Virus record (IMG/VR): IMGVR_UViG_3300010354_012227
Coordinates: 1 to 33,828 of that record
From: a virus
Reading direction: 5' to 3' (one strand)
DNA length: 33,828 nucleotides
Positions 1,034 through 33,828 of the stretch are shown piece after piece (the first letter of the stretch is position 1; each line of letters opens with the position of its first letter). Both the position numbers and the translations under genes were made by a program. The notes below the pieces were generated by a model. That model saw only the letters and a program-made list of their open reading frames with translations. It was not told where the DNA came from and did not search any database.

Positions 1034-2068
1034 TTATTTTACAAAGACGTCGTTTATCTGTCTGTTAACACGAATAAATGTCGTGCATTTTGATAATTGT
1101 TTTAAAGTAGGTGCTCCTACATAGGTACAAGTACTACGAAGACCTCCTAAAATATCCAATACAGTATTACGAATTGGGCCTTTATATTTTACTTCTACAG
1201 TACGTCCCTCACTCGAACGGTATTCTGCTATACCGCCGTGATGTTTGTTCATAGCAGTATCTGAACTCATACCATAAAAGATAACTTTAGGTTCTTGTCC
1301 TTCTTCTTGGATGACTGTGCCGCCACCTTCGTCGTGTCCTGCCAGCATACCTCCCAGCATTACAAAGTCCGCACCAGCGCCGAAAGCCTTAGCAACATCA
1401 CCAGGGCAAACACATCCACCATCAGCAATAATATGAGCGCCAAGACCATGAGCGGCATCGGCACACTCAATAATAGCACTAAGTTGTGGGTAGCCCACAC
1501 CAGTTTGGATACGAGTAGTACAAACGCTACCAGGGCCAATGCCCACTTTAATAATATCTGCCCCACGTAAAATTAACTCCTGTGTCATGTCTGCGGTAAC
1601 AACGTTACCAGCAATAATAGTTGCGTGTGGATATGTTGTTCTAACTTTACTTACGAAATCTCCAAAGTGTTCACTGTATCCGTTGGCCACATCGATACAG
1701 ATAAAATGTATTTCTGGATAAGAATTAATTATCTGTCGTAGTTTTAAAAAATCTTTATCGCTGGTACCTGTGCTGACAGCAAAATAATTACCGCCAATTT
1801 TGCCTACAGTAAAACCTAACTCGCTTTCGTCATAGTTTTTTACCAAGCAGGTAAACATCCTGTGTTCGTATAATGTTTCTGCCATATGAAGTGTGCCAAC
1901 ACCGTCCATATTAGCAGCCATTACAGGAATACCAGTCCATTCTGTTTTACTGTGTTTAAATTTGTATGTACGACTTAAATCTACTTCTTTACGACTAGAT
2001 AGTGTGCTACGTTTAGGACGGATTAAAACATCCTTAAAGTCTAATTTGACTTCATCTTCAATGCGCAT
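1034..2068 (-). CDS. guaC: GMP reductase
   Basis: A 344-aa protein very close in length (E. coli GuaC about 347 aa) and sequence to Gua[21 protein letters not shown] at the N-terminus, the GPGSVCTTR loop with catalytic Cys183, the [11 protein letters not shown] and ADGGC phosphate-binding segments, and [12 protein letters not shown] near the C-terminus. The CBS domains typical of IMP dehydrogenase are absent, which separates GuaC from GuaB. It reduces GMP to IMP with NADPH, so a phage copy could convert guanylate from degraded host nucleic acid toward adenine nucleotides. A GAGAAAGG ribosome site precedes the ATG. The stop overlaps a possible ATG of the exonuclease frame (TAATG). Confidence 0.95.
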
Positions 2069-8102: not shown

Positions 8103-8618
8103 TTAATTTTGTAAAACTTTGGATACTGCCGTTATAACTGAGGCAATGCGCCCAATATCACGAAGTTGTTCTACTGTATAACCTGCTTTCTTGAGTGTGT
8201 CGTAGTGTGACTTAACACAGAAATGACATTTGCCAACAATCGAAGCGGACAGTGCGTATGCTTCAAACCTTGCCTGAGTGGTTCCGCCGTGTGTTGCAAT
8301 AGCGTTCATTCTAAGTTGAGCAGGCAGTCCTGATAAATTAATATCTTCAGCCATTTCAACATACGGATACCAGACATTGTTCATAGCCATTAGACTGGCA
8401 GCCGTGATAGCGGCTTCTGCTTCTTTTTGATCTTCAATTTGGCTTTGCATCCAAGTCCACAGTTTAGTATTTCCTGTGGCAAAAGCCGCCGCTAATGCAA
8501 CGGCTTCTGCTTCTTCTTGTGGAAGGGTTGAACGCTTAACTACCGCATCAATATTTAGACGTGTGTCTTTGGCATAGTCGGGAATGGTTTCCTTTAATTG
8601 ATCAACCCAGGCAGTCAT
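8103..8618 (-). CDS. ahpD: alkylhydroperoxidase AhpD
   Basis: 171 aa with the CxxC site and general-base histidine of AhpD: CHFCVKSH at Cys131, Cys134 and His138, and the upstream Glu119 in ARFEAYALS that completes the proton relay known for Mycobacterium AhpD. Length matches the family. AhpD reduces the oxidised C-terminal cysteines of AhpC, using lipoamide/dihydrolipoyl carriers in the known mycobacterial system. The ATG shares one base with the ahpC stop (TAATG), so the pair is translationally coupled. Finding this two-gene peroxide defence beside a phage tmRNA is unusual. Confidence 0.93.
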   Translation of the reverse strand: MTAWVDQLKETIPDYAKDTRLNIDAVVKRSTLPQEEAEAVALAAAFATGNTKLWTWMQSQIEDQKEAEAAITAASLMAMNNVWYPYVEMAEDINLSGLPAQLRMNAIATHGGTTQARFEAYALSASIVGKCHFCVKSHYDTLKKAGYTVEQLRDIGRIASVITAVSKVLQN

Positions 8619-9151
8619 TATAGTGTCTCCCCACCGATTGAACGATTGCAGGCACAGAGTTCGCCAGTTTGTAGAGCGTCAAGCACACGAAGGGTTTCTT
8701 CTGGGCTACGACCAACGTTCAAGTTGTTAACAGTAACGTGTTGGATAACATTGTCTGGGTCAACAATGAATGTTGCGCGAAGTGCGGCACCTGCTGGAGC
8801 ATAGAATACACCAAGTTGCTCGATCAATGACAATTCGCCACGCTGTGTGTCAGCAAACTGGATGTGCTTGATCTTTTTAAGATCTTCGTGAGCGGCCTGC
8901 CATGCTAGTTTGCAGAACTCGTTGTCCGTGCTGCCGGTTAGCAATACTGCGTCACGATCAGAAAAGTCGCTATGTAGTTTGTCATAGGCAACGATTTCTG
9001 TTGGACAAACAAACGTGAAATCTTTTGGATAGTAAACGATTACTTTCCACTTACCTTCAAAACTTTTTTCTGTAATATCAAAGAATTGATCACTACCTGG
9101 ATTGATGCCTACTACGGCAAATGCTTCTAACTTATCACCTACTGTTTTCAT
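8618..9151 (-). CDS. ahpC: peroxiredoxin AhpC (AhpD-dependent type)
   Basis: 177 aa. The peroxidatic site is FTFVCPTEI (Cys49), and the C-terminus GELCACNRS holds two more cysteines (Cys166, Cys168). That three-cysteine arrangement is the AhpD-coupled AhpC class, not the AhpF-coupled EVCPA class. It reduces hydrogen peroxide and alkyl hydroperoxides in the cytosol. A GGAGAG site and a CACACACAAAGGAG leader precede the ATG, and a sigma70 promoter lies at 9207-9236. No other gene separates it from ahpD. Likely protects the infected cell, or ribonucleotide reductase, from oxidants. Confidence 0.95.
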   Translation of the reverse strand: MKTVGDKLEAFAVVGINPGSDQFFDITEKSFEGKWKVIVYYPKDFTFVCPTEIVAYDKLHSDFSDRDAVLLTGSTDNEFCKLAWQAAHEDLKKIKHIQFADTQRGELSLIEQLGVFYAPAGAALRATFIVDPDNVIQHVTVNNLNVGRSPEETLRVLDALQTGELCACNRSIGGETL

Positions 9152-9285: not shown

Positions 9286-9311
9286 ATAAAAAAGCACCCG
9301 AAGGTGCTTTT
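9286..9311 (-). terminator. intrinsic terminator of the tmRNA gene
   Basis: Reverse-strand AGCACC-TTCG-GGTGCT hairpin followed by a run of T. It lies directly after the coding piece of the permuted tmRNA and before the ahpC promoter. Confidence 0.85.
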
Positions 9312-9472
9312 GGTATTTTCTGTTACGAGGTATTTCCTACCCTAGGCTGCGTTTAGGCAGCCAATGCAAATCTTTCGTCGTTTGCGTTTACGTTTTTGCT
9401 TGATTTAGGGTCATCGCCTACCCTGCTGTCCACTCTGTTACTCTTTGCCCTGTCGAAACCATGACTGGCCCA

Positions 9473-9547
9473 TCATAAGAGGACTATGGCAAAAACTACC
9501 AGAACAACTACCACGCCAATTGCTAAAGGTGTCAAGTCGTCGTTCAT
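9473..9547 (-). CDS. 24-aa membrane peptide inside the tmRNA spacer
   Basis: Within the spacer excised between the two tmRNA pieces is a complete small ORF: AAGGAG, 7 nt, ATG at 9547, 24 codons, TGA at 9473. Its stop is one base before the mature 5' end of the coding piece. The peptide has an acidic start (MNDDLTP) and then 17 hydrophobic residues rich in Val and Leu, a single membrane span. The ribosome site begins two bases after the CCA end. It resembles tiny phage membrane proteins; the fit to the spacer could be accidental. Confidence 0.55.
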   Translation of the reverse strand: MNDDLTPLAIGVVVVLVVFAIVLL

Positions 9548-9628
9548 ACTAATCTCCTTATGGTGGACCAGGCGGGAGTCGAACCCGCGTCCAGAACACT
9601 TTTCTCTCGGCTTCATACAGCAATAAAA

Positions 9629-10039
9629 TTATTTAATCCAACCTATCTTTTCATTGGCTGATTTACGTCGATCGTGCTCTTCTGGAGTATTTGGATATCT
9701 CCAAGCCCAGACTGCAACCAATGTCATAAACACTGCGGTTGAAATTATACCGATGGGTTTTACTCCGCCTGTCCACATTAATATAAGGCTTAATGACATC
9801 ATTGTCAACATCAAATAGCGTAGCTTCTGTGGAAAAACCCTTTTGGTTTGCCAATTCATAAGGAACGGTCCAAAAATCTTGTGATTGTAAATCCAACGGT
9901 GCATACGCTCTGATCCTTTAGAAAAGCAGTATGCTGAAAATACGATGAATGGACTGTACGGTATGCCTGGAGTAACAACCCCAATATAGGCCAAGCCCAA
10001 ACTAATAAATCCCAAAATGTTCCAAAATAATTTTTTCAT
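9629..10039 (-). CDS. DUF454 (YbaN-like) membrane protein
   Basis: 136 aa. The N-terminal MKKLFWNILGFISLGLAYIGVVTPGIPYSPFIVFSAYCFSKGSERMHRWI region carries the DUF454 pattern: LG..GxxxPGxPxxPF, then a Cys-Phe-x-KGS and RMHxW motif. Two further spans follow (LMLTMMSLSLILMWTG, ISTAVFMTLVAVWAW). It is an inner-membrane protein of unknown function, in a family also carried by some aquatic phages. Its stop codon abuts the 5' end of the tmRNA transcript region, and it lies directly after the PAAR gene. Confidence 0.8.
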   Translation of the reverse strand: MKKLFWNILGFISLGLAYIGVVTPGIPYSPFIVFSAYCFSKGSERMHRWIYNHKIFGPFLMNWQTKRVFPQKLRYLMLTMMSLSLILMWTGGVKPIGIISTAVFMTLVAVWAWRYPNTPEEHDRRKSANEKIGWIK

Positions 10040-24017: not shown

Positions 24018-24719
24018 TTATCGAACTCGAGCTAATCTAAAAAATTGCAGTACCTTGATATACATCCAACCTATGTCAACCTCCCACTTGCGCTGACGGA
24101 AGTTTGCTGATGCACCATTTGCGTGATGGTTGTTATGTAACTCTTCACCGCCAATCCATACTGCCCAAGGCCATAGGTTTCGGCTGGTGTCTTTGGTGTC
24201 TGTGTTACGATATCCCCACCAATGGCTAAGTCCGTTGATTACTCCTGCTGCCCAGAAAGGTATCCATAACATCTGAACACCCCAGACCACAAATCCCACA
24301 GGGCCAAAAAGAACAAGATCTATGATCAACATTATGAGAATCCCTAGGCGACTGTGCGGGGTGTATAACTTTTCCTCTATCCAATCATTAGGTGTACCGT
24401 GTCCTAGTTCCTGGATTAGTATTTTGTTTCTTGCTGCTTTGGCATAAAGCAAAGCACCGCCAAACAGTACACGCCATATACCGTAGACTTTTGGGCTATG
24501 CGGATCCTGTTCTGTATCTGATGCTTGGTGATGTTTTCTATGAATGGCCACCCATTCTTTGGTAACCATACCTGTGGTAAGCCATAACCAAAAACGCATA
24601 AAGTGTGCGACCACAGGATGAAATTGTACTGCACGATGTGCCTGGCTACGGTGTAGATACAGAGTAACGCAGGCAATAGTGATTTGTACCATCACCAAGG
24701 TATAGATTATTATTAGCAT
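24018..24719 (-). CDS. membrane fatty acid desaturase
   Basis: 233 aa with the three histidine boxes of acyl desaturases: HRSQAH (His23-His28), HRKHH (His60-64) and HNNHH (His195-199). Hydrophobic spans separate the boxes, and a di-iron site is predicted. It is shorter than bacterial stearoyl desaturases (about 300 aa or more). The ATG shares a base with the aldolase stop (TAATG). Phage desaturases could adjust host membrane lipids at low temperature or supply unsaturated chains. It is the last gene of the aceA operon. Confidence 0.88.
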   Translation of the reverse strand: MLIIIYTLVMVQITIACVTLYLHRSQAHRAVQFHPVVAHFMRFWLWLTTGMVTKEWVAIHRKHHQASDTEQDPHSPKVYGIWRVLFGGALLYAKAARNKILIQELGHGTPNDWIEEKLYTPHSRLGILIMLIIDLVLFGPVGFVVWGVQMLWIPFWAAGVINGLSHWWGYRNTDTKDTSRNLWPWAVWIGGEELHNNHHANGASANFRQRKWEVDIGWMYIKVLQFFRLARVR

Positions 24720-25345
24720 TAATAGTTCCCTGAGGCTAGAACGATTTTACAGATGTGTTCTAAACGCTCAATGTGTTCGAAGGATCTCCAAGGTGTAGAG
24801 TCTATGGCAACAACTCCGTGACCTTTAATTCCTACGATATCGTACTTAATCTCTCCTGTCTCTTCATTTAAACCCAACATTTTGTGACACTGGTCTCCTA
24901 GTTCTTGTGAGATAGGAGGAACATCTCCTACATTGGGTGCTACTCTAGTATATCTACTGAGTTCTGGAAAATGTCTAGCAAGTTCGCTTAACTCAATACC
25001 CGCATGCATGGCCGCCACTATATAGGTAGGATGTATGTGTGTGACTACACGTACTTCATCGCTGTGTATTTTTTTCTGTAGACCGAAATGTAAAGGCATT
25101 TCACCTGTGGGACGCAATCCCTGGCTGATATCACTGTAAGGCATTTCTTGCCATAGAGTAACAGGTCCAGATATGATTTTGATCTTTTTAAATTGATCTG
25201 GCTGTAGGGTTTGTTTGCGTACACCGCTAGGTGTCACATAAAAATGATCTCTATCGTGATGGCGAATAGATATGTTGCCATCTCTGCTGGTGATCCAATT
25301 TCGTTTGTAGGCTTCTACCAGGATATCACATATAGTTTCTAACAT
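24719..25345 (-). CDS. class II aldolase/adducin-family protein
   Basis: 208 aa. The family features are DGNISIR (phosphate-binding), GEMPLHFG with the catalytic Glu, and HIHPTY with zinc-binding His residues, followed by GHGVVAID. Zinc-dependent members include fuculose- and rhamnulose-phosphate aldolases, ribulose-phosphate epimerase and the methionine-salvage dehydratase MtnB. The sequence does not allow a choice of substrate, but an uncommon GEMPLH instead of SSE/SSD suggests divergence. It is packed between the 38-aa ORF and the desaturase with overlaps at both ends. Confidence 0.8.
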   Translation of the reverse strand: MLETICDILVEAYKRNWITSRDGNISIRHHDRDHFYVTPSGVRKQTLQPDQFKKIKIISGPVTLWQEMPYSDISQGLRPTGEMPLHFGLQKKIHSDEVRVVTHIHPTYIVAAMHAGIELSELARHFPELSRYTRVAPNVGDVPPISQELGDQCHKMLGLNEETGEIKYDIVGIKGHGVVAIDSTPWRSFEHIERLEHICKIVLASGNY

Positions 25346-25461
25346 TAAAGATCCTTAAAGTTCACCCAGATGGCAGTTATAAAAAGACAGAGCCATAGAA
25401 TAAAAAATAATATAGCTCTGTTTCTTTTACGTACCGGCGTGTTTTGCCAATATTTGATCAA
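25345..25461 (-). CDS. 38-aa membrane peptide overlapping aceA and the aldolase
   Basis: Starts at TTG 25461 whose bases TTGA overlap the aceA stop, with AGAGGA 8 nt upstream, and stops at TAA 25345 which shares a base with the aldolase ATG (TAATG). The peptide has a basic stretch (PVRKRNR) and then a span [17 protein letters not shown]. An exact fit between two genes with both overlaps suggests it is translated. An alternative view is that the embedded ACAGAGC/GCTCTGT hairpin with a following T-run is an aceA terminator. Confidence 0.5.
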
Positions 25462-26732
25462 TGAAATTGTTCCTCTTCTGTGCTGCCTTTCAGAGCCTGT
25501 GTCGAAGCATCTTTCTCTACAGTGGTTGTTAATAGATCAAAGTAACTAGTGCCTACTTCACGCTGGTGTTTGACTGCTTCGAAGCCTCGGTCCGCAGCAG
25601 CAAATTCTTTTTCTTGTAGTTCCACAAACGCAGGCATGCCATCCCTAGCATAGCCATAAGCCATATCGAACATATGGTAATTAAGATTGTGAAAACCAGC
25701 GAGAGTGATGAACTGGAACTTGTAACCCATTGCTCCCAATTCACGTTGGAAACGGCTAATTGTGTCTGCATCTAGATTCTTCCTCCAATTAAAACTGGGC
25801 GAACAGTTATAGGCTAGCATTTTGCCCGGAAAGTGTTTATGTACTCGTTCTGCGAATTGTTTCGCGAAATCGAGATCGGGTTTCCCTGTTTCACACCATA
25901 CAAGATCGGCATAAGGTGCGTATGCGACTGCTCGGCTGACTGCTTGCTCGAGTCCGTTGCGGGTTCTATAGAAACCCTCGACAGTTCTTTCACCAGTAAG
26001 AAAAGGAACGTCATTAGGATCAATATCGCTAGTGATAAGGTTACCGGCTTCGGCATCAGTTCGTGCGATAACAAGAGTAGGCACGCCCATAACATCAGCA
26101 GCGAGACGAGCGGCAACAAGTTTATTGACTGCTTCTCTGGTTGGTACAAGGACTTTTCCTCCCATATGACCACACTTCTTAGCACTAGCCAGTTGGTCTT
26201 CAAAATGGACACCTGCGGCACCTGCCTCAATCATGTCCTTCATCAATTCATATGCGTTTAAAACTCCACCAAACCCTGCTTCAGCATCTGCTACTATAGG
26301 GGCGTAGAAGTCTTTCTCGCTGCCTTCACTCCATGCGATCTGATCGGCACGAGAAAAAGCATTATTGATTTTCTTAACAACTGCGGGCACAGAATCTGCT
26401 GGATACAAACTTTGATCAGGATACATATCTCCTGCTAGGTTTGCGTCTGCGGCTACCTGCCACCCACTCAAATATATAGCCTTTAAACCTGCTTTGACCT
26501 GTTGTAGGGCCTGCATACCAGTTAAGGCGCCCAGTGTATGAACATAATCTTCTTCTAGTAGAAGACGCCATAGTTTTTTGGCTTGATCAACAGCAAACTG
26601 ATTTGGGTAAGTCTTTGAGCCTTGTAAGCGAACGACTTCCTCTGCTGTGTATGGTCTCTTTATTCCATTCCAACGAGGATTTAGGGTCCAATCCTGCTGG
26701 ATAGCCTGCTGTCTCTGTGTGCGATTACTCAT
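25458..26732 (-). CDS. aceA: isocitrate lyase
   Basis: 424 aa, the bacterial length (E. coli about 434). The catalytic signature KKCGHMGGK has Cys187 and His189. The Mg2+ and substrate region [10 protein letters not shown] lies near 148, GVHFEDQ near 174, and the C-terminus ends GSTEEEQFH. All are typical of active AceA. It splits isocitrate into glyoxylate and succinate, the first step of the glyoxylate shunt; malate synthase is not in the window. It is preceded by an ACACAAGGAG leader and a CATAAATA octamer, and heads an operon with the 38-aa ORF, aldolase and desaturase. Phage-borne aceA is rare in my knowledge. Confidence 0.96.
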
Positions 26733-32396: not shown

Positions 32397-33086
32397 ATGG
32401 AACTCTTTACACTCCAAGCCCTATGGGCATTCTTAGCAATCATACTGATAGACATCGTATTGGCAGGAGATAACGCACTGGTTATAGGAATGGCTGCTAA
32501 TAAACTTCCAGACCACCTACGCAAGAAAGCAATCTTCTGGGGAACCTTTGGTGCCATTGCCATTCGCTTTGTGTCAGTGGCTGCACTTACATACCTATTA
32601 ATGATTCCAGGCTTACGTGCCATTGGTGCCGCGGCACTGATATGGATTGGTTGGAAACTGGTATTTGATCATAGCGAACACAACATCGAAGCCAAAGACA
32701 CCTTCTGGGGAGCCATCGGTACTATCGTAGTTGCTGATGCTGTTATGGGCGTAGACAATGCTCTAGGTATTGCTGCGGCCGCACAAGGAAACTTTGTGTT
32801 GATCATTGCTGGTTTACTAATCAGTGTGCCAATTATCTTATTCGGCGCCACTTTAGTCAGCAAGATTCTACAACGATGGCCCGACACAGTATTCCTAGGA
32901 TCATTTGTGTTGTTTGCTGTTGCTATGTTGATGCTGATGAAGGAACCTTTAATGGCTAGTTGGTGGGCGGGATTAGAACCGATAATCGCCAAGCCGTTAC
33001 CTTGGCTAGTCGCACTAGTACTCACTGCTGTTCAGTATAACAAGGCTCGTTTACATTTACATAAACGATATTTGTTTAGGTCATAA
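32397..33086 (+). CDS. TerC-family (YjbE-like) integral membrane protein, probable Mn2+ exporter
   Basis: 229 aa with the TerC signature: IDIVLAGDNALVIGMA (about 20-35) and ADAVMGVDNALGIAAAA, two repeated Asp-Asn metal-binding helices, and about seven membrane spans. Members under yybP-ykoY control export Mn2+. A typical YjbE-like length is 220-230 aa. An AAGGAAAA site lies 7 nt before ATG. It is followed by a strong terminator. In a phage it could tune host metal levels or, with AhpCD, oxidative stress. Confidence 0.9.
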   Translation: MELFTLQALWAFLAIILIDIVLAGDNALVIGMAANKLPDHLRKKAIFWGTFGAIAIRFVSVAALTYLLMIPGLRAIGAAALIWIGWKLVFDHSEHNIEAKDTFWGAIGTIVVADAVMGVDNALGIAAAAQGNFVLIIAGLLISVPIILFGATLVSKILQRWPDTVFLGSFVLFAVAMLMLMKEPLMASWWAGLEPIIAKPLPWLVALVLTAVQYNKARLHLHKRYLFRS

Positions 33087-33111
33087 AAAAAGCCCCTTCC
33101 GGGGCTTTTTT
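33084..33111. terminator. bidirectional intrinsic terminator
   Basis: AAAAAAGCCCC-TTCC-GGGGCTTTTTT serves the TerC gene on the plus strand and pstS, which converges on the minus strand and ends within it. Confidence 0.92.
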
Positions 33112-33828
33112 AATTCTTAATCTGTGTCCAGATCCGTTGTCTAATTTGATTTGTCAAACTGTCTGGCAATGGAACATAGTCTAATTCCAATGCTGACTGT
33201 CTACCATTCTTAAATGCCCAATCAAAAAACTTTAGAGCCTCCTGACTCTGTTTCTTATCTGTGGGATCCTTATACATTATGATGAATGATGCCGTGCTTA
33301 TAGGCCATACATTTTCTCCACGCTGATCAACGATGCTCAAACCCATACCTGGCACCGAGAACCAATCAGCACCTGCGGCTGCGGCTGCGAATGTTAGGTC
33401 ATCTGGGTGTACCCAACGACCACTTTTGTTCTGCATCTGTAGATATGTTAATTTGTTTTTCTTTACGTAGGCATATTCTACATAACCTATGCTGCCTCTA
33501 ATACGTTCAACGTTAGCCGCGACACCTTCATTGCCTTTGCCGCCTATGGCCGTAGTCGGGATCCATTTGACAGCAGGACCACGGCCTACACGATCTAACC
33601 ACTCTTTGCTCACGGAACTTAGATAGTCAGTGAAGTTGAATGTTGTGCCAGAACCGTCAGCACGATGCACCACGGTGATGCTTTCGTTAGGCAATGTCTT
33701 GCCTGGATTGAGAGCGGCAATCTTTGGATCATTCCAGCGAGTGATGTTTCCCATATAAACATCTGCTAACACAGGACCAGTGATGCGTAGTTCGCCTGGT
33801 TTGAATCCCTGTAAATTTACAATGGGCA
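33110..33828 (-). CDS. pstS: PstS phosphate-binding protein, C-terminal part
   Basis: The frame is open to the window end; about 238 residues are visible, lacking the signal peptide and N-terminal lobe. Conserved features are NLQGFKPGELRITGPVLADVYMGNITRWNDP (described in parts), TVVHRADGSGTTFNFTDYLS with the phosphate-contacting ADGSGTT loop, and a GSIGYVEYAYV motif. It binds phosphate in the periplasm for the Pst ABC transporter. Phage pstS genes are well known in cyanophages and pelagic phages. The promoter and any Pho-type control lie outside the window. Confidence 0.93.
   Translation of the reverse strand, partial: PIVNLQGFKPGELRITGPVLADVYMGNITRWNDPKIAALNPGKTLPNESITVVHRADGSGTTFNFTDYLSSVSKEWLDRVGRGPAVKWIPTTAIGGKGNEGVAANVERIRGSIGYVEYAYVKKNKLTYLQMQNKSGRWVHPDDLTFAAAAAGADWFSVPGMGLSIVDQRGENVWPISTASFIIMYKDPTDKKQSQEALKFFDWAFKNGRQSALELDYVPLPDSLTNQIRQRIWTQIKN

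Follow-up and report, generated by a model that had tools for sequence, protein, structure and literature searches.

Two-piece tmRNAs are common in aquatic phages (PMC9004378), and the sequence that intervenes between the two pieces is described in a 2025 tmRNA database paper as absent from the mature tmRNA; inside it, a tRNA was noted in one archaeal-MAG case and a repeat in another single case (PMC11915505). The locus described here raises the question of whether such a spacer can also be a protein gene. The window, i.e. the whole stretch of DNA that was analysed, is a 33.8-kb virus record in IMG/VR (33,828 nucleotides). It contains an intact permuted tmRNA gene on the minus strand, and all features of that gene and of its two neighbours given below are on that strand.

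Covariance-model scores for the tmRNA were 155 bits with RF01850 and 142 bits with RF04321 (RF04321 gathering score 47), over the tRNA-like domain, and ARAGORN called a tmRNA* with the tag ANDERFALAA, whose reading frame, with its stop, occupies positions 9353..9385. The acceptor piece, comprising the T arm and the encoded CCA (9561..9622; RF04321, RF01850 and the ARAGORN tmRNA* call), is transcribed first and precedes the coding piece, and the tag frame ends in ALAA. The coding piece begins with its mature 5′ base, the G at 9471, and was placed by ARAGORN and RF01850/RF04321 at 9312..9471, its outer end being approximate (up to the terminator). The acceptor ends pair with one another (GGGCCAG with CUGGUCC), with G3-U70 kept. 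The tmRNA of the window is a regular member of the known permuted class (RF04321/RF01850), with the same gene order, tag and alanine identity pair. Tags of 24–31 residues are encoded by many phage permuted tmRNAs (L255, L241, L377, L012 and others); one long tag, ANADTFDFSAMSFTGNTVSGKSKVALAA, was observed in 10 ORF-bearing loci, and the long tags are shared between phages and combined freely with different spacer peptides.

An intervening spacer of 89 nt (9472..9560), absent from the mature tmRNA, separates the CCA (last base 9561) from the 7-bp 5′ strand of the acceptor. Its first base, directly after the CCA, is also the first base of a Shine–Dalgarno (SD) sequence, UAAGGAG (9554..9560), which recurs in ORF-bearing spacers and is a 7-nt match to the 3′ end of 16S rRNA. 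Downstream is a 24-codon ORF, MNDDLTPLAIGVVVVLVVFAIVLL, with its UGA (9473..9547); the AUG is at 9547 and the UGA ends at 9473, one base ahead of the mature 5′ G. A preliminary description of this DNA, which reported an 89-nt spacer with AAGGAG, ATG, 24 codons and a TGA one base before the mature RNA, proved exact in both coordinates and layout. The anatomy would fit a single transcript serving as both RNA and mRNA, with a promoter-like site upstream of the tmRNA and ORF and an intrinsic terminator downstream of them (9290..9311). The candidate promoter, TTGACA-17-TATATT (9780..9808), lies within the upstream gene and was identified by its consensus match (11/12). Sigma70-like matches 250 to 60 nt before the CCA were found in 62 of 427 loci, in comparison with 9.6 in mononucleotide shuffles.

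The peptide has an acidic N terminus, one hydrophobic stretch and no positive charges, and these features fit a single-pass inner-membrane peptide; the best 17-residue hydropathy in its group, 3.34, is that of a membrane-spanning segment. A peptide of 24 residues would be completed while still largely within the ribosome. No Pfam family was found for it, there was no tblastn match in phage records, and no recognisable relative was found outside tmRNA spacers.

Permuted phage tmRNAs were collected with two IMG/VR scans in which no ORF was demanded (more than 100 loci each among the matches listed) and with a third IMG/VR pattern, consisting of a purine-rich SD after the CCA, an ATG and a terminal TGATGG, in which the frame was not required (84 stretches, the full set of matches). 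The layout of the window, with SD, ATG and ORF in the spacer, is present in dozens of IMG/VR phage contigs. It is clear that the frame is kept: in 52 of the 56 unique spacers of the third pattern the ATG begins an open frame that is in register, and in a further two an in-frame TTG does so, against a chance expectation of approximately 6% for an open, in-frame spacer (about 1/3 in frame × 0.18 open). A shuffle test, which gave 61/198 against 3.4, is inflated because an ATG was demanded in some of the scans, and the fair figures are those of the scans without that demand. With no ORF demanded, ORFs were present in 0 of 120 spacers of about 36–66 nt and in 21 of 119 of about 69–98 nt, both among the matches listed, and in 49 of 106 of about 100–128 nt; for spacers of 132–162 nt the share was approximately 24 of 31 unique sequences (list judged by eye). 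The ORF share thus increases with spacer length, from 0/120 up to about three quarters.

To assess selection on the encoded peptides, spacers were compared as nearest-neighbour pairs (n=33), from which the start codon and the five terminal codons, the stop among them, were excluded. The pN/pS was 0.35 (bootstrap 0.24–0.46), in comparison with 0.86±0.09 for neutral simulations with the same spectrum, none of 300 of which was as low; the remaining two frames gave 0.84 and 1.62. Differences at codon positions 1, 2 and 3 numbered 104, 53 and 165, respectively. For the group that includes the window (29 spacers, 44 loci) pN/pS was 0.22, and for the remaining groups, pooled, 0.39. Between the window and locus L241, with the same codons trimmed, there are 11 synonymous changes and no replacement change. 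Judged by these substitution patterns, the spacer ORF is under purifying selection for its amino-acid sequence. Alignment of related spacers, the check suggested in the preliminary description, thus found frame, ribosome-binding site and synonymous bias all kept, and the free variation, frameshifts and missing ribosome-binding sites by which an accidental ORF was to be recognised were not seen within the family. Since these three properties are kept across related phages, one primary transcript would carry both a tmRNA and a protein gene. The preliminary interpretation is supported in part; near relatives often have a non-coding spacer or an unrelated ORF.

Further phage spacers contain unrelated ORFs of 19–68 codons, again with the SD directly after the CCA. 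Clustering gave 36 ORF groups, six probable chance hits having been dropped, and 13 of the groups contain at least two distinct spacers. Set aside as probable chance ORFs were those of L004, L121, L133, L169, L232 and L270, and also that of L023. By hydropathy, 15 of the 36 groups are membrane-like and 21 are not. The longest ORFs are in longer spacers (68 codons in L305 and 65 in L308); a 41-residue membrane family occupies the spacers of L337, L350, L355 and L358, and a family of 30 residues, MKYTALCP, is cysteine-rich. The 44-residue protein from the L347 spacer matches PHROG 13558 (1e-12), a family that in 85 phage records is matched by a gene standing on its own; one cargo at least is therefore a known phage protein. 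L249, L260 and L279 share a clearly non-hydrophobic spacer peptide, MNILDLPEEYVPLVPDDFSFYPVSL, with mostly synonymous changes; its conservation indicates that membrane character is not required at the spacer site. Three classes of stop were observed. In the first, to which the window belongs, the UGA lies within the terminal UGAU; in the second the stop is somewhat earlier, at −7 to −13; in the third there is none in the spacer, and the frame enters the mature coding piece, with end points that vary among close relatives. The stop-less groups are MKYTALCP, MKSLLEIGKW, MPVDMYYY and MKIDITAEHEG.

The neighbourhood of the tmRNA gene allowed the history of the spacers to be followed. The upstream neighbour is a DUF454 (YbaN-like) membrane protein (9629..10039; PF04304, 4e-29), and the downstream neighbour, an AhpC/TSA peroxiredoxin (8618..9151), marks by its synteny the conserved neighbourhood of this phage group. 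On a tree of the DUF454 protein from 65 loci, spacers must have switched between the ORF-bearing and the other state 15 times or more, with 12 of the switches forced by well-supported branches, this count being approximate because some loci scored as lacking an ORF (e.g. L380) carry one that was missed by the SD filter. Over approximately 1 kb upstream, 250 nt of the coding piece and 1 kb downstream, L036 and L377 agree completely or almost completely, and their acceptor pieces differ at one position in 70; the sole further difference is in the spacers, which encode a membrane peptide (82 nt) in one and a cysteine-rich peptide (101 nt) in the other. The pairs L041/L282 and L221/L354 are similar cases. 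Unrelated spacer cores were found in 36 of the 185 locus pairs in which both flanks are at least 88% alike; the swap events may be fewer than the pairs, since variants from a single phage population may be present among the contigs. The window and L241 have the peptide in common, with little similarity beyond the tmRNA and with different tags.

These sequence comparisons show unrelated ORFs and non-coding spacers replacing one another between near-identical phages. Because wholly different spacers occur in phages identical over kilobases, the spacer behaves as a swappable cassette for a cargo gene, and because near relatives often have a non-coding spacer or an unrelated ORF, the peptide would be optional cargo and not part of tmRNA function. 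The cassettes are probably swapped when the conserved halves of the tmRNA gene recombine homologously, which is the simplest mechanism.

Among cultured phages, NrdB is closest to that of Xanthomonas phage X1 (63%) and to those of the Stenotrophomonas menderaviruses (55%). Permuted tmRNAs are present in Xanthomonas X1 and Stenotrophomonas Marzo, and their spacers are without an SD-ORF. The tag and a beta_tmRNA match suggest a betaproteobacterial host for the window. A search for the same pattern across 84,980 species of bacteria and archaea (one genome per species) gave a single match, beside a tRNA and not in a tmRNA; the trait therefore looks phage-specific, in a comparison counted by species genome and not by bacterial permuted tmRNA. 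The contig also carries an unusual metabolic set, an isocitrate lyase (25458-26732, minus strand; PF00463, 2e-106) adjoined by a class II aldolase-like gene (24719-25345) and a fatty acid desaturase (24018-24719). An IMPDH/GMP-reductase-domain protein (1034-2068, minus strand), a TerC-family membrane protein (32397-33086, plus strand) and a periplasmic solute-binding-like protein (33110-33772, minus strand) were also observed.

Whatever the class of phage spacer, its nine 5′-terminal bases pair with those at positions 5 to 13 counted from its 3′ end, forming a stem that closes the precursor. Folding and pair counts (102 ORF-bearing and 192 other spacers) place its strands in the window at 9552..9560 (5′ strand, which includes the SD) and 9476..9484 (3′ strand, which coincides with the final ORF codons, ...CUC UUA). 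In non-coding spacers the stem pairs covary freely, pair 5, for example, being C-G in 77, A-T in 47, T-A in 29 and G-C in 23 (n=192). In ORF-bearing spacers the SD is the 5′ strand, and pairing is kept largely via A-U and G-U; the first pair is T-A in 57/102 and A-T in 26/102. Mean duplex energies are −7.5 kcal/mol for ORF-bearing spacers versus −11 kcal/mol for non-coding spacers. That unrelated peptides end alike (VLL, VFF, VSL) is explained by the identity of the 3′ strand with the ORF end. Spacers of phage permuted tmRNAs almost invariably end in UGAU or UAAU, and, since UGAU pairs with ACCA save for one C-A mismatch, the acceptor helix seems to continue into the spacer stem. The sequences thus show, in terms of predicted pairing, that the ribosome-binding site forms part of the closing stem common to all phage pre-tmRNAs. 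The tie of peptide synthesis to tmRNA processing that the preliminary description proposed would thereby have an anatomical basis.

The predicted probability that the SD is paired is 0.94 in the precursor and 0.40 when transcription has reached no further than nt 45 of the spacer; for the window the values are 0.84 and 0.33, respectively, and its precursor fold has a z of −2.5 versus shuffles. From this difference between precursor and nascent RNA we infer an order in which translation comes first and stem closure after it, so that the stem would gate translation of the ORF. Ribosomes would read the ORF on the primary transcript as it is being synthesised, at a time when the SD is free and the ORF 3′ end does not yet exist; once transcribed, that end would pair with the SD and shut off initiation. 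The same pairing would complete the helix in which cleavage releases the tmRNA, presumably, as in the maturation of tRNAs and tmRNAs generally, by RNase P and the 3′-processing enzymes. Each transcript would then yield a short burst of peptide, followed by one tmRNA, and the peptide of the window would go to the inner membrane. These expectations are those of a folding model, and ribosomes engaged on the ORF might melt the stem all the same.

That a gene should lie inside an RNA segment that is later removed has precedents. In group I intron tmRNA genes a homing endonuclease ORF likewise lies within a removed segment of the tmRNA gene (PMC11915505), but the phage spacer is no intron, is not spliced, has no endonuclease match and carries interchangeable ORFs. 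The spacer of the window was rejected as a group I intron with an ORF, as it follows the CCA and precedes the coding piece instead of interrupting the T loop, and its peptide has no Pfam match. miPEPs, too, are encoded by short ORFs that lie in the portion of a non-coding RNA precursor, the primary microRNA, which is later discarded (PMC9953219); they are eukaryotic, with mRNA-like precursors, whereas the phage spacers have the SD in a processing stem and cargo that is exchanged between phages. Bacterial dual-function RNAs (RyhB/RyhP) likewise provide one RNA function and one peptide from one transcript (PMC5331693), but with the ORF within the functional RNA rather than in an excised part. 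arfA, a small-protein gene under tmRNA surveillance, resembles the stop-less spacer ORFs (PMC10107115), unlike the window ORF, which ends in a stop codon of its own. In the open-access literature, permuted tmRNAs with coding spacers were not found to have been reported, and none of the intron ORFs, dual-function RNAs or miPEPs joins an SD in a processing stem with exchangeable cargo.

The best explanation, which as a whole we regard as probable, is that the spacer is a nest for one small protein gene, translated from the nascent RNA, shut off by closure of the stem and serving as accessory cargo. Such nests would be distributed over a large set of mostly aquatic phages, the window representing the membrane-peptide type. 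That cargo is exchanged so rapidly between phages otherwise identical suggests accessory roles, as in phage–host or phage–phage conflict, and it is in interactions of this kind, rather than in tmRNA function, that a peptide so quickly replaced by others most likely serves. A broader proposal, which we put forward tentatively and consider doubtful, is that phage tmRNA spacers are hypervariable cargo sites translated only co-transcriptionally, before the SD is locked, and that stop-less products are tagged by the released tmRNA, so that the peptide would read out rescue capacity during infection.

A related alternative is that the excised spacer is itself the messenger; where stop-less, it would be a non-stop mRNA whose product is tagged by the same tmRNA and accumulates only when rescue capacity is short. 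The stop-less groups that read into the mature piece with variable ends are in its favour, and arfA offers a precedent for tmRNA-controlled non-stop expression (PMC10107115). However, the window group and many others have a stop inside the spacer, and processing at the encoded CCA may destroy the spacer, so this reading is judged unlikely. Less credence still is given to a cis-acting leader, in which translation as such, and not the peptide, would regulate tmRNA processing. The location of the SD in the processing stem is consistent with it, and a ribosome at the stop codon would, by the presumed geometry, cover the 5′ end of the coding piece; but the amino acids are under selection, and many phages with the same flanks lack any ORF. 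A cis effect may nevertheless coexist with a functional peptide.

The preliminary description raised the possibility of a holin-like or toxic product, and a membrane killer of the holin or type-I-toxin kind, timed by tmRNA processing, is suggested by the size and hydrophobicity of the 24-residue peptide, these being the points in its favour. Hydrophobicity was the sole basis of the original suggestion, which the 21 of 36 groups that are not membrane-like do not bear out. Holins typically have a charged flank or a second helix, and the peptide has neither; no family was matched in Pfam or by tblastn in phage records, and soluble, cysteine-rich and coiled-coil-like ORFs also occur at the site, so that the spacer site itself is not a lysis locus; the probability of this reading is accordingly low. 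Finally, an accidental ORF, arising where a U-rich spacer pairs with an SD-like purine strand and is by chance open and hydrophobic, is extremely improbable: the closing stem does impose U-rich last codons (V-L-L, V-F-F, V-S-L), the stop-supplying UGAU also ends non-coding spacers and the majority of short phage spacers have no ORF, but the explanation is rejected at the family level by the tests of frame (52/56 in frame and open), codons (pN/pS 0.35 even with the last five codons trimmed, and only synonymous changes between the window and L241) and breadth (unrelated soluble ORFs in further spacers, one of a known phage family).

What had been supposed to be processing waste is, on the preferred reading of a small-protein nest, a coding and rapidly exchanging gene site in the tmRNAs of many phages, including contigs of 280–353 kb. 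Dozens of small phage proteins are revealed where gene finders would not look, inside an RNA gene, and a possible reason is provided for the carriage by phages of two-piece tmRNAs with long spacers. The site also offers a clean system for the competition between RNA-precursor folding and translation, and the turnover of cassettes in otherwise identical phages hints at roles in phage–host or phage–phage conflict.
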